Assembly: GCA_029260215.1 (NCBI GenBank)
Contig: JAJDDQ010000077.1
Coordinates: forward strand, 1-45,516
Reading direction: 5' to 3'
Origin: Phycisphaerae bacterium
GTDB lineage: Bacteria > Planctomycetota > Phycisphaerae > UBA1845
Length of the DNA: 45,516 bases
A model generated the notes under the pieces. That model was not told the origin of the DNA. It ran no database searches and was given only the letters and a program-made list of their open reading frames with translations. Numbering within the stretch: the stretch's first letter is position 1; every line of letters starts with the position of its first letter. The translations under genes were made by a program, and so were the position numbers. Shown one piece after another: positions 38,362 through 42,826 of the stretch.

Positions 38362-38423
38362 TATCAGATGACAAAAAACACCTAGAGGACGGGATTTTTT
38401 CGCACAAACGCAATGATCGCCTT

Positions 38424-38530
38424 CTTTCTCCCCTCCTTGCGAAGGAGGGGCCGGGGGAGGTTCTTCTTGCGAGACGAAGCGTTGCTCTGGTTCAAACCCC
38501 CCTGTATCCCCCCTTCGTAAGGGGGGAAAA
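38424..38530. repeat. MITE-like element with hairpins at both ends
   Basis: Left end has CCCCTCCTT-GCG-AAGGAGGGG (38430-38450); right end has CCCCCCTT-CGT-AAGGGGGG (38508-38526). The outer sequences CTTTCTCCCC and GGGGGGAAAAG are imperfect inverted repeats. About 105 bp, no gene. Similar C-rich palindromes are known as dispersed repeats in many bacteria. It sits upstream of the hypothetical exported protein and has extended its open frame. Confidence 0.7.
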
Positions 38531-38655
38531 GATTGTTCCCTGTCGTAAGGAGAGGACAAAAGATCTGCATGCATTGCACATGGCTGACCTGCAATGTTTT
38601 TCATCGTTCTGGTACTCGCTTTCCGATCCATTTCATTTCCCCGCACGTTCCCAGT

Positions 38656-39708
38656 TTACCGTAGTTTGACCTTGCCGTTGCCTTTGCACGCGTCGCCGAT
38701 CACAACCGGTGACTCGCCTGCGTCGGCCAATCGCTTCATCACGCCGTTCGCGTACCTCGGTCGAACAGCCATGACGAACCCGATTCCCATGTTGAACACC
38801 TTGTTCATCTCCCCACGTGTCACGCCGTGGTTTTGAAGGAACCCGAAAATCGGCGGTGCTTTCCATGAACCGCGCTCGATTACGGCGTCGCATTTCGCGT
38901 TCAGCATGCGTGCGACGTTTTCCTTCAACCCGCCGCCGGTTATGTGGGCCATGGCGGTGACCACGCGCGAACGATAACCGTTGACGACCGCGAGCACGCT
39001 TTGCACGTAAATTCGCGTCGGTTTGAGTGCCGCCTCAGCCAGCGTCTCGCCCAGTTCGTCATATCGCTTTTTCAATGACAGACCGTTAGCACTTATAACC
39101 TTTCGCACCAGCGAAAACCCGTTCGCATGCACGCCGCTGGAAGGCAGGCCGATCAGTATATCACCCACCGACGTGCCGGAACCGTCCAGCGCTCGCCCGC
39201 TATCGACCAAGCCTACCGAAAAACCAGCCAGGTCGAAATCGCCCGCGCGGTACAGATCGGGCATCTCCGCCGTCTCCCCGCCGAGCAGAGCGCACCCCGC
39301 CTGCCTGCACCCGTCGGCTACACCTTCGATCAACTGAAGCAGTGCGTCCGCATCGAGCCTGTTGACGGCCAGGTAGTCCAGGAAAAACAGCGGCTTCGCC
39401 CCGCAGGTTATCAGGTCGTTGACATTCATCGCGACCAGATCGATGCCCAGCCCGTGAAGTCGGCCCGTTTCGATGCCCAGAAGAACCTTCGTGCCAACAC
39501 CATCCGCACACCCAACCAACACGGGCTGCTTCATCGCGCGATGACCGTTGACGCGGTCGAGCCGAAACAGCCCGGCAAATCCGCCCGCTTGGCCTATGAC
39601 CTCCGGTCCGTGCGTCGATTTCATGGCAGACTGAATGCGCTCGACCCACCGCGTATTCGCGTCGATATCGACGCCGCTGTCTTTGTAGGAGAGTTTGACG
39701 TTGCCCAT
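38656..39708 (-). CDS. purM: Phosphoribosylformylglycinamidine cyclo-ligase
   Basis: 350 residues from ATG 39708, the family's normal size. It closes the imidazole ring in purine synthesis, making AIR from FGAM with ATP. Family motifs: YKDSGVDIDANTRWVERIQ at the start, VGCADGVGTKVLLG, MNVNDLITCGAKPLFFLDYL, GGETAEMPDLYRAGDFDLAGF and HITGGGLKENVARML. An extended frame to 39813 is open but not family-like. purF lies 40 bp upstream on the same strand, so they form an operon. The ribosome site is weak. Confidence 0.97.
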   Translation of the reverse strand: MGNVKLSYKDSGVDIDANTRWVERIQSAMKSTHGPEVIGQAGGFAGLFRLDRVNGHRAMKQPVLVGCADGVGTKVLLGIETGRLHGLGIDLVAMNVNDLITCGAKPLFFLDYLAVNRLDADALLQLIEGVADGCRQAGCALLGGETAEMPDLYRAGDFDLAGFSVGLVDSGRALDGSGTSVGDILIGLPSSGVHANGFSLVRKVISANGLSLKKRYDELGETLAEAALKPTRIYVQSVLAVVNGYRSRVVTAMAHITGGGLKENVARMLNAKCDAVIERGSWKAPPIFGFLQNHGVTRGEMNKVFNMGIGFVMAVRPRYANGVMKRLADAGESPVVIGDACKGNGKVKLR

Positions 39709-39748
39709 CAAAAAAGCCCGCACACACATCGACGGTCGTTGGCGACCG

Positions 39749-41185
39749 TCAGGTGAACATTCGCAGTTGCCGCCGCTCGAGCGCGAATTTGTCGAACGGC
39801 TCGCGCACCTCAACGGCGTAATCGCCCGTAAAACAGGCTGTGCAGTATTGATCGCGGGGCATCTTCACGCAACCGAGCATGCCGTCCACGGAAAGATAAT
39901 GAAGCGAATCAACCTCCAGAAACTTCGCGATTTCCTCAAGGCTGCGATTGGTGGCCACCAACTTCGATTCATCCGGAAAGTCGATGCCGAAATAGCAACC
40001 GTGGCGGATCGGCGGGCTGGCGACGCGCAGGTGAATCTCCGTCGCGCCCGCCTCGCGCAGGGCACCGATTTTCCCGCGTGTCGTCGTGCCGCGCACCACG
40101 GAATCCTCGACAACGATCAGTCGTTTGCCACGCACCACGTCGCGAATAACGCGCAATTTGAATTTCACGGCTTCGGCTCGCGACGCGGCGTCGGGCATGA
40201 TGAACGAGCGCCCCGCGTAATGACTCGTGGTGAACCCGCGACCCAGCGGCTGCCCGCTTTCGTGACTGTAGCCGATCGCGGCGCAGCGGGCACAGTTGGG
40301 AATCGGCACGACGAGGTCAGCCTCGACAGGCGCTTCACGCGCCAGCGCCCGGCCCATCCGCTCGCGAACCAGATGCACGTTTTCGCCGAAAATGTTGCTC
40401 GACGGATCGGCGAAGTAAATCTGCTCGAAGATGCAGGCAGCCCCGCGCCCGTTCCCTTCGCCGCCGAACCGCTTGGAGTCCATCCCGTCCCTGGTGATCG
40501 TGAGGATTTCGCCTCGTTCGATATCCCGCACGTACGTCGCATCGACGATATCCAACGCACACGTCTCGCTCGCAACGACCATGGCTCCGTTACCCATTCT
40601 GCCCAGACAGAGCGGGCGGAAACCCAGCGGGTCGCGCACCGCGATCATCCGATCCGGGAACAGCAACAGCAGTGAGTACGCACCCTGCAAATGATTCAAC
40701 ACGTGGACGAGCGGGTTCGACTTGGCTTGATGCGACGGCTTGGCCAGCAACTGAATGATGACCTCCGTATCGCTCGACGTTTGAAAAATGTGCCCGTGGT
40801 CTTCGTACTGACGGCGCAGCAGGGCGGCGTTGATCAGGTTGCCGTTGTGCGCGATCGCGACCTGCCCGCCCGCGTAGCTGAACATCAGAGGCTGCGCGTT
40901 TTCGGAGCAGGTTCCGCCCGTCGTTGAGTAACGCACGTGTCCGATACCGACCGGGTTCGCCAGCGATTCGATCGCAGCCCTGTTTAGAACATCGTTCACC
41001 AGCCCCAGCCCGGTGACGCGCTTGATCGTTGTGCCGTCCGTCGTGCATGCGCCGGCTGACTCCTGACCGCGATGCTGCTGTGCGAACAGACCCATCTGTG
41101 TCAAAACGGCGGCATTCTGATGGCCGAAAATGCCGAAGAGTCCGCAACTGTGCTTAGCCTCGCGTTGGGTGGGGTCGGGCTGCAT
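39749..41185 (-). CDS. purF: Amidophosphoribosyltransferase
   Basis: 478 residues from ATG 41185 (another ATG at 41239). It makes phosphoribosylamine from PRPP and glutamine, the first committed purine step. The N-terminal nucleophile is Cys14 in KHSCGLFGIFGH, exposed after removal of a 13-residue propeptide, as in Bacillus-type enzymes. The PRPP loop is VVEDSVVRGTTTR. Cysteines matching the 4Fe-4S sites of the Bacillus enzyme are present in ASETCALD, HGCYFGIDFP and QYCTACFTGDY. The usual ProAspSerGly-x-ProAlaAla segment reads PNCARCAAIGYS, adding a CxxC. Upstream of purM by 40 bp. Confidence 0.97.
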   Translation of the reverse strand: MQPDPTQREAKHSCGLFGIFGHQNAAVLTQMGLFAQQHRGQESAGACTTDGTTIKRVTGLGLVNDVLNRAAIESLANPVGIGHVRYSTTGGTCSENAQPLMFSYAGGQVAIAHNGNLINAALLRRQYEDHGHIFQTSSDTEVIIQLLAKPSHQAKSNPLVHVLNHLQGAYSLLLLFPDRMIAVRDPLGFRPLCLGRMGNGAMVVASETCALDIVDATYVRDIERGEILTITRDGMDSKRFGGEGNGRGAACIFEQIYFADPSSNIFGENVHLVRERMGRALAREAPVEADLVVPIPNCARCAAIGYSHESGQPLGRGFTTSHYAGRSFIMPDAASRAEAVKFKLRVIRDVVRGKRLIVVEDSVVRGTTTRGKIGALREAGATEIHLRVASPPIRHGCYFGIDFPDESKLVATNRSLEEIAKFLEVDSLHYLSVDGMLGCVKMPRDQYCTACFTGDYAVEVREPFDKFALERRQLRMFT

Positions 41186-41318
41186 GAATTGGGGCGTCCG
41201 GAGTGCGGCACCGAGAAATGCAACGATGTCTCGGCGCATTCATTCGCAAAACGGGAGGGTAGTCATCCGGTCGGTCATCGTCAATGATCGGCGCGGCCGG
41301 ATCATGCGTGACAAATAA

Positions 41319-42638
41319 TCACGGACGTGGCGTTCGATTCGCACGGACGCGGACAGGCGACCGCGACAGCACCCTCGGCTCAGCCACCACGCACACCATT
41401 GCGATGCACAACGCGATGACCGGTGCGGTTAAGGTCGCGTATCGTCCGGCCACAAACAACTGCGCGACTTCACACAACAAAGCCGCCGTCGGAACAGCAG
41501 CCAGCACGAACAGCTTACGCATTTTCAAACTCCAACCCTGGGTAATCATCCAAATCGCGACGGCCAAGAGACCGTAAGCACTGGCGGTCTCAATCATGTA
41601 CGCCGCCGCCGCCCCGAAAGGCCTGTGAAACTCCGCCCAGAACGGGAACATCTCCGACGACCAGCTCAACACAGGCCGACGAAACTCGAACGGCGACAGA
41701 CCGGACGCCAGCAACAACGTGACCTGACCAACAATGAACAAGCCCACCGCCACGCGCCCCCAAGGCCGACGAACAACCATCGGCAACACGACAATCAACG
41801 TCACGCCGACGACACCACCGACCACGCCCGCAAACGCATCACGCACATCCATCGTGTGCGACTGACTGAAAACCTGAAGAATCTCTATCGCAATTGCCAG
41901 AATAGCCACATGCGCGATTCCACCAAGCACGGCCGCACGCACCGGCACCCGCCGCTCCGGACCGCTCAGAAAGCACAACCCGCCGAGCAAGGCAAACTGT
42001 CCCACGATCGCAACCCAGCCAACCCAGTCGCCGGCAGTCAGCCCATACGTGCCAAACGTCAACCGCGATCCACGCAGCGAATTCTGAAGGGCTTCGCCCG
42101 TCATGACGAAATCGAACGGCAGAAGATGATACGCAATCAGGCCCACCGACAGCAGCTTCACCGCCATCGAGAAGGGCCTATCCCTCAGTGCGCAGGCGAG
42201 ACGACCGCGAAGCGACCTCATTTGAATCAACGCGACAGTCGCCAACGCACCCAGCACGCCACCGAGCACGTTCATACCCACATCGACCCAGGATGCCACA
42301 CGCGCGGACATCGTCGTCTGTGCCCATTCCAGCGACGTGCTCAGAGTCAAAGCCGCCAAACCCGCACCGACAACACCCAACGTCAAACGAGTTCGCCGAC
42401 CGATGCCGAATGCGATCAGCCCCCCCAGCGGTGCGTAGACCACGATGTTGGCGATCAGATCGCTGAGCGGCGAACCCGACACGGCGAAATCCGCCAACCC
42501 AAATATTCGGTCAGGCCCCGCGAGACTCAGATCGAACCGGAACGGAACAAGCGTGCCCGTACAGATTCCCAAGACGCCCAGCACCAGGCAGAGTCGCAAA
42601 ACGTTAGCTCGATGATGTCTTCCTGAGAACGGTGACAT
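41319..42638 (-). CDS. Membrane protein with three VanZ-like modules
   Basis: 439 residues from ATG 42638, with GGAGGGGG seven bases upstream. About 12 helices arranged as three repeats. Each has a Leu-x-Pro-Phe-[RDE]-Phe entry motif (residues 30-35, 172-177, 314-319) and a Glu-x-x-Gln (104-107, 252-255, 390-393); modules 1 and 2 also have Asp-containing ends (SWVDVGMNVLGG, VRDAFAGVVGG), while module 3 lacks the Asp. VanZ domains were first seen in teicoplanin resistance and are also widespread in envelope proteins. Function here unknown. Confidence 0.75.
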   Translation of the reverse strand: MSPFSGRHHRANVLRLCLVLGVLGICTGTLVPFRFDLSLAGPDRIFGLADFAVSGSPLSDLIANIVVYAPLGGLIAFGIGRRTRLTLGVVGAGLAALTLSTSLEWAQTTMSARVASWVDVGMNVLGGVLGALATVALIQMRSLRGRLACALRDRPFSMAVKLLSVGLIAYHLLPFDFVMTGEALQNSLRGSRLTFGTYGLTAGDWVGWVAIVGQFALLGGLCFLSGPERRVPVRAAVLGGIAHVAILAIAIEILQVFSQSHTMDVRDAFAGVVGGVVGVTLIVVLPMVVRRPWGRVAVGLFIVGQVTLLLASGLSPFEFRRPVLSWSSEMFPFWAEFHRPFGAAAAYMIETASAYGLLAVAIWMITQGWSLKMRKLFVLAAVPTAALLCEVAQLFVAGRYATLTAPVIALCIAMVCVVAEPRVLSRSPVRVRANRTPRP

Positions 42639-42826
42639 TGGATTCCCCCTCCACGCGATCATAGGCACGGGCAATCCACGAGCCAAACTCGATTCCACCT
42701 CAACTTAGTCCGCATACACCGGCACAACGCGCTGGCACCGCTTTTTTTCGGACGCGCCAAAGCACACAGCCAACCGTGAGGCCCACAAACAACACGACGT
42801 TGAAAAATGTGAACACGCCACGCACG

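Follow-up and report, generated by a model that had tools for sequence, protein, structure and literature searches.

The gene and its surroundings

The window, that is, the whole stretch of DNA that we have analyzed, comprises 45,516 nucleotides of contig JAJDDQ010000077.1, from a Phycisphaerae bacterium. The host genome searched contains 4.97 Mb in 88 contigs. On the minus strand of the window, from 42638 to 41319, we find a gene coding for a 439 amino acid protein with three VanZ modules, which we will call triple VanZ. The gene starts with an ATG at 42638, its stop codon ends at 41319, and a GGAGG is present at 42652-42648, nine bases ahead of the ATG. The features of the locus are collected in Table 1.

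Table 1. Features of the triple VanZ locus, with residues in the protein and positions in the window
Feature	Residues	Position	Strand	Remarks
Triple VanZ gene		41319..42638	-	ATG start; Pfam VanZ 63.2 bits, three stretches
Ribosome-binding-site-like GGAGGGGG		42645..42652	-	Read from sequence
Module 1	13-142	42213..42602	-	Complete predicted site
LVPFRF, entry motif of module 1	30-35	42534..42551	-	
EWAQ, module 1	104-107	42318..42329	-	E and Q in 34/34 family A members
D119xxxN123, helix 4 of module 1		42270..42284	-	D in 34/34, N in 32/34
Module 2	157-291	41766..42170	-	ExxQ kept, helix 2 Asn missing
LLPFDF, entry motif of module 2	172-177	42108..42125	-	
EILQ, module 2	252-255	41874..41885	-	Both kept in 32/34
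Module 3	295-424	41367..41756	-	Most diverged
LSPFEF, entry motif of module 3	314-319	41682..41699	-	
EVAQ, module 3	390-393	41460..41471	-	Both kept in 12/34
Eroded acidic end of module 3, T402-A405		41424..41435	-	
purF-like gene, glutamine amidotransferase domain		39749..41239	-	Nearest gene downstream of triple VanZ, same strand
purM-like open frame, AIR synthase domains		38656..39813	-	After the purF-like gene

As described below, triple VanZ proteins belong to two families, A and B, and the gene in the window is a member of family A. A purF gene lies downstream on the same strand in 8 of 21 family A loci and is the immediate neighbour in six of them (the window, L043, L044, L046, L050 and L061), while a zinc-type dehydrogenase gene is found upstream in 10 of the 21. 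These neighbours, purM included, are uninformative on lipids. The adjacency of purF was considered as a functional clue to family A and rejected, as it does not imply that the protein takes part in purine synthesis. Elsewhere in the window, positions 38380-38640 contain a dispersed repeat of about 200 bases, with at least 40 matches in the same genome (40 scored among 100 candidates). The short junk frames which span this repeat are similar to each other.

The three modules and their conservation

An earlier note, made from the sequence alone, had described three modules in this protein, each with an LxPF[RDE]F entry motif and an ExxQ motif. This description is borne out, since motifs, Pfam stretches and family profiles concur. 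The entry motif occurs exactly three times (LVPFRF at residue 30, LLPFDF at 172 and LSPFEF at 314), with spacings of 142 and 142 residues. ExxQ is found in register at 104, 252 and 390; a fourth ExxQ, at 182, falls outside the register of the repeat. When the protein is shuffled 200,000 times, a triple LxPF[RDE]F never appears and three or more ExxQ appear 140 times. The Pfam VanZ model (PF04892) gives 63.2 bits, with a cut-off of 30.1, and three stretches at E values up to 1, and the NCBIfam vanZ_1 model scores 38.4, with a cut-off of 20. Taken module by module in the own genome, the VanZ match has E values of 6.0e-8 for module 1 and 5.3e-6 for module 2, and a weak 0.054 for module 3.

Modules 1 and 2 can be related to each other as single sequences: their Smith-Waterman score is 71, and the best of 1000 shuffles reaches 61. 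The two pairs which include module 3 score 29 and 34, values which shuffles reached 555 and 202 times in 1000, so a family profile is needed to detect the kinship of this module. With profiles of 30 homologue rows, hhalign aligns all pairs in register, with E values of 1.8e-13 (modules 1 and 2), 9.5e-8 (1 and 3) and 9.3e-10 (2 and 3). The best E value is 0.041 in 40 column shuffles per module pair, 0.036 for reversed profiles of different modules and 0.0048 for any reversal, namely that of module 1 against its own reverse. These controls fall short of the true pairs by at least five orders of magnitude. Reversed and shuffled profiles thus exclude a chance likeness of membrane helices, and the existence of homologues with the same frame excludes an artefact of frame or annotation. 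A comparison of nine modules, taken from three proteins, leaves three residues without variation: the entry-motif P, and E and Q in ExxQ.

The modules are not equally conserved. We have counted conservation separately in 34 family A members and 17 family B members, leaving out L075. In family A, mean pairwise identity is 0.32, 0.292 and 0.22 for modules 1, 2 and 3, and the columns conserved at 90% or more are 15, 9 and 3. Ten residues of module 1 are identical in all 34 members (P32, D60, N64, Y68, G72, E104, Q107, R113, D119 and G126), and N123 in 32. In module 2, P174 is found in 34, E252 and Q255 together in 32, and PFD nearly always; the D264 position is D or E in 30 of the 34 members, and D267 is kept in 20. 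Module 3 has both E and Q in only 12, with Asp at 402 in 32 and at 405 in 6. The ExxQ motif, a feature of helix 3 of VanZ-1, is nevertheless present in all three modules of the protein in the window (34, 32 and 12 of the 34 members of family A, in the order of the modules). N64, in helix 2 of module 1, is matched by N in none of 34 members in module 2 and in 2 of 34 in module 3, therefore the helix 2 Asn of VanZ-1 is found in module 1 only. As for the DxDDxxxN motif of helix 4, module 1 contains D119 and N123, with Ser and Val replacing the first two acidic residues; the Asp three residues before the helix 4 Asp is replaced by Ser in 33 of the 34 family A members. Module 2 has D264 and D267, without the N, and module 3 of the protein in the window has none of the motif.

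The earlier note also stated that the third module has lost its acidic end, which is correct for this protein: the positions of S116 and D119 in module 1 are occupied by T402 and A405 in module 3. It is an atypical member of its family in this respect, having lost the Asp at 402. Its motifs are not a mark of the family either. Of the 34 family A members, only the protein in the window has LxPF[RDE]F three times in exact form, and no other member has the module 3 motif in that form. The motif pair is thus present three times in this protein but does not characterize family A, whose module 3 has ExxQ in the minority noted above.

Family B shows another pattern. P25, D52, N56, E97, Q100, R106, D112 and N116 of module 1 are found in 17 of 17 members. 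In modules 1 and 3, none of the 17 lacks E, Q, R or Asp; the helix 2 Asn of module 3 is changed to Lys in 16, and it is module 2 that has lost ExxQ.

The family-mean hydropathy of family A reveals twelve hydrophobic segments. With loop bounds drawn by us from the protein in the window, K and R amount to 746 of 4124 residues on the presumed inside and to 271 of 4155 on the outside, and the bias has this direction in each of the 34 family A members. This higher density on the presumed cytoplasmic side indicates that both ends of the chain and the loops between helices 2 and 3 are cytoplasmic, and that the three predicted sites face the periplasm. A model of module 1 (residues 10-142), built with a 9-row alignment from the window sequence and two related loci, has four long helices and a short extra one (pLDDT 76.6, pTM 0.71). 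The four-helix core expected of a lipocone is present in this model, and in modules 2 and 3 as judged by hydropathy only. A full-length single-sequence model has a mean pLDDT of 43.4 and a pTM of 0.32, so we have not used it. A fold search with the module 1 model gave 103 matches at E <= 10, none of them at E <= 0.001, and no lipocone among the matches listed; a sequence search of the triple VanZ against solved structures gave no match. PsaL, the subunit which joins photosystem I into trimers, leads the structural matches listed for the module 1 model. We have rejected a kinship with PsaL as too weak: the best Foldseek E value is 0.31, and VIA-align gives a Z of 9.8 over 96 residues at 3.4 A, below the mark of about 13 for helical bundles.

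Distribution, age and genomic context

A comparison with the own genome and others of the same family and order, 60 in all, detected matches to the triple VanZ in 50, and 31, including the own genome, have a single match covering at least 350 of the 439 residues. All 38 homologous proteins examined (loci L042-L079) present three module-sized matches at E < 0.1. In a tree of 52 triple proteins, family A contains 34, among them the one in the window, which groups within the family (starred sets of 4, 6 and 7 rows). Family B forms a clade of 17 rows (100/99), and L075 lies beside it on a long branch. The host genome contains one protein of each family. In this planctomycete order, triple VanZ proteins thus fall into two families of paralogues, and they are also present elsewhere in the phylum.

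Our genome surveys cover Planctomycetota. In a phylum sample, 29 of 119 genomes match the family A profile at E <= 1e-6. Ten loci were fetched from these matches, a choice biased towards triples: six contain triples (L084, L085, L086, L088, L089 and L090), L087 and L091 have a single module, and L092 and L093 have two detected modules and a gap. When this module-sized gap is tested as a third module, hmmsearch gives E values of 0.03-2 and hhalign a best value of 0.057 over 5 columns; these two have not been counted as triples. The triple of L086, 425 residues long, can be seen to have PF-like, ExxQ and Asp residues in each of its modules. A less biased sample, based on Pfam and including 59 genomes, contains 19 VanZ frames of at least 380 codons. 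Three modules are detected in four of them (two from the own genome), one module in eleven, and two modules with a gap in one, while three have no module better than 1e-3 by the module profiles. No clear two-module or four-module VanZ was met among the multi-module proteins examined. A tblastn search of plasmids with the L086 triple detected no triple, only short single-VanZ matches in two records (26% and 18% coverage), and a related-locus search with P0001 as query found nothing. The family search for other tandem VanZ proteins, proposed in the earlier note, has been productive: all 38 homologues examined are triple and others occur elsewhere in the phylum. A single module is indeed the usual form of VanZ, as the note stated, but the protein in the window is less unusual than it implied, because the family is widespread.

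We have built a quick tree of modules, with 133 columns kept, from 23 triples, which contribute 69 modules, and 12 single VanZ. It requires nine changes of the position label, where shuffles require 43.9. Among the triples from the order, all 17 second modules fall into one group (SH-aLRT 92), and the 17 third modules likewise (93). First modules are on the side of single VanZ: all 23 belong to a set of 36 rows, along with 11 singles, a second module and a third module. Since modules cluster by position, a single old triplication is likely for families A and B. With 133 columns, unstarred support values and long branches meeting, it is only possible that the triples in the rest of the phylum derive from the same event. 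The tandem duplication suggested in the earlier note, here a triplication, is well backed by the profiles, the three-module homologues and the grouping of modules by position.

Judging from these sequences, the triple VanZ is an old and common design among the relatives of the protein in the window, with an apparently intact first copy and others partly worn. It shows how a lipid-acting module may have turned into a 12-helix membrane protein in Planctomycetota.

The surroundings of family B are different. A gene for an undecaprenyl-type sugar transferase (Bac_transf, scanned in a representative) is found divergently upstream in 11 of 18 family B loci, and other loci have Wzy_C ligase, glycosyltransferase and asparagine-synthase genes nearby. 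The family B protein of the own genome (L009:4258-5754, contig C60, 498 aa), with ExxQ in modules 1 and 3 and lost in module 2, lies near glycosyltransferase and Wzy_C ligase genes. Immediately upstream of the B gene, 11 of 18 loci (L064:9542-10831 and its kin) contain a lipoprotein-like gene of about 260 aa, with LxxC near its start and no match in Pfam or NCBIfam. It is possibly a partner of the family B triple VanZ. A different unmatched gene takes its place in five other family B loci.

Other VanZ architectures have also been detected. L097:711-2849, in a genome of the same class, is a 712-residue frame which joins a single VanZ to MurJ, the lipid II flippase. L088:5288-9538 codes for a 1416-residue protein whose three VanZ modules are flanked by long N- and C-terminal parts without a Pfam match. 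In L085:4162-8400 the triple VanZ is followed by a very long, acidic and repetitive tail, and the portion of this frame before the modules is probably non-coding. The own genome also contains a VanZ fused to a laminin-G-like domain (L010:4261-5820, contig C74, 519 aa), an architecture which L087 and L094 resemble by eye.

Possible function and comparison with known systems

To our knowledge, no reaction has been assigned to VanZ in the decades since it became known, and we have found no report on the biochemistry of any triple VanZ in the literature searched. PMC6182600 and PMC8744867 describe a single VanZ with five helices and a mechanism yet to be established. PMC12419801 assigns VanZ to the Lipocone superfamily, in which the active members cleave lipid head groups or exchange them, and polyprenyl-linked saccharides are proposed as VanZ substrates. 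Our preferred reading, to which we give an even chance, is that the triple VanZ is a fused 12-helix lipocone of VanZ-1 type, in which module 1 acts on the head groups of lipid carriers on the periplasmic side and modules 2 and 3 are structural or regulatory. Module 1 would bind the head group of a lipid in the outer leaflet, most likely a sugar intermediate linked to polyprenyl phosphate, and would cleave or exchange it, in the way that the main text of PMC12419801 proposes for VanZ. Modules 2 and 3 may hold the assembly together, shape the entry of the substrate or regulate it, and the chain might conceivably fold as a three-fold ring. The complete site of module 1, its outward orientation, the link of family B to Bac_transf and to the lipoprotein-like gene, and the VanZ-MurJ fusion fit the Lipocone proposal. 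Several observations speak against our reading: the neighbours of family A give no hint of lipids, no lipocone was listed by the fold search with the module 1 model, Ser replaces the Asp three residues before the helix 4 Asp in module 1, and the protein in the window departs from its family at D402.

The twelve hydrophobic segments, together with the common orientation of the three modules, would also suit a transporter which flips or scrambles polyprenyl phosphate, its conserved polar residues binding the lipid rather than cutting it; such a site is as suitable for binding as for catalysis, and the VanZ-MurJ fusion is a pairing with a flippase. Nevertheless, we consider transport rather unlikely, given that the usual VanZ is a single module of four or five helices, which does not require a transport role, that all sites are on one side, and that in the fusion it is MurJ which suggests itself as the flippase. 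It is very unlikely that the protein is a sensor of membrane lipids which signals without chemistry of its own. The main text of PMC12419801 reports VanZ domains fused to signalling domains, and family A is isolated in its genomic position, but the site of module 1 is invariant and the 439-residue protein contains no signalling domain.

A further suggestion is that only module 1 matters and that modules 2 and 3 are passive remnants of the triplication, left as membrane anchors. The drop in identity and in conserved columns from module 1 to module 3 of family A, as well as the missing D402 of the protein in the window, agree with decay of this kind. We think it improbable all the same: module 2 keeps its E and Q together, and its PFD, in nearly all of family A, the Asp at 402 of module 3 is present in all but two of its members, module 3 of family B keeps a second set of E, Q, R and Asp throughout, and no remnant of either family with one or two modules is found among the 38 proteins of loci L042-L079. 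The division of labour put forward as possible in the earlier note has to be seen in the same light. It fits the graded conservation, but this is a pattern of constraint which does not demonstrate roles, and a very similar outcome would be expected for module 3 of family A if spare copies simply decayed.

A bolder idea, which we find unlikely, is that the working VanZ unit is a trimer. The triple chain would then be a fused trimer with a shared central lipid pocket and one catalytic module, the others having specialized differently in families A and B. If this is true, trimer symmetry would have left a genomic trace in the recurrence of exactly three modules, given that no clear case of two or four was met in the multi-module proteins examined, and if three is the functional number, it becomes a testable statement on how single VanZ proteins assemble. 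Families A and B, whose worn copies are different, provide a built-in mutational comparison between residues kept for the structure of the fold and residues kept for the site.

As regards known systems, a label of glycopeptide resistance has been rejected: the NCBIfam vanZ-A match is weak (22.5 bits, with a cut-off of 250), and no resistance genes lie beside the triple VanZ within the window. The chemistry proposed in the main text of PMC12419801 is founded on characterized superfamily enzymes, the phosphatidylserine synthases PTDSS1/2 and TelC; they are different families, and no match in fold or sequence to the protein in the window was obtained. That main text does not mention "tandem", "triplicat-" or "planctomycet-". 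In the papers covered by our literature search no triple VanZ is described, although one may be included in a supplementary table or a subscription journal.

VanZ-1 (PF04892, vanZ_1) resembles module 1 in the helix 2 Asn, the ExxQ of helix 3 and the DxxxN of helix 4. It differs in that the chain in the window has three modules, and the upper part of DxDDxxxN is not kept in module 1. Two kinds of duplicated lipocones are described in the main text of PMC12419801. The cpCone duplicates are a circularly permuted clade with two copies, unlike our protein, but they belong to the same superfamily and also combine one active and one inactive copy, the second. The duplicated VanZ-1 of betaproteobacteria has two copies instead of three and is part of a four-gene operon with ferredoxin, lipase and transpeptidase, which is not seen at our locus. 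Like the triple VanZ, it is a tandem with a first copy taken to be active and a later one that is worn, the C-terminal one being inactive.
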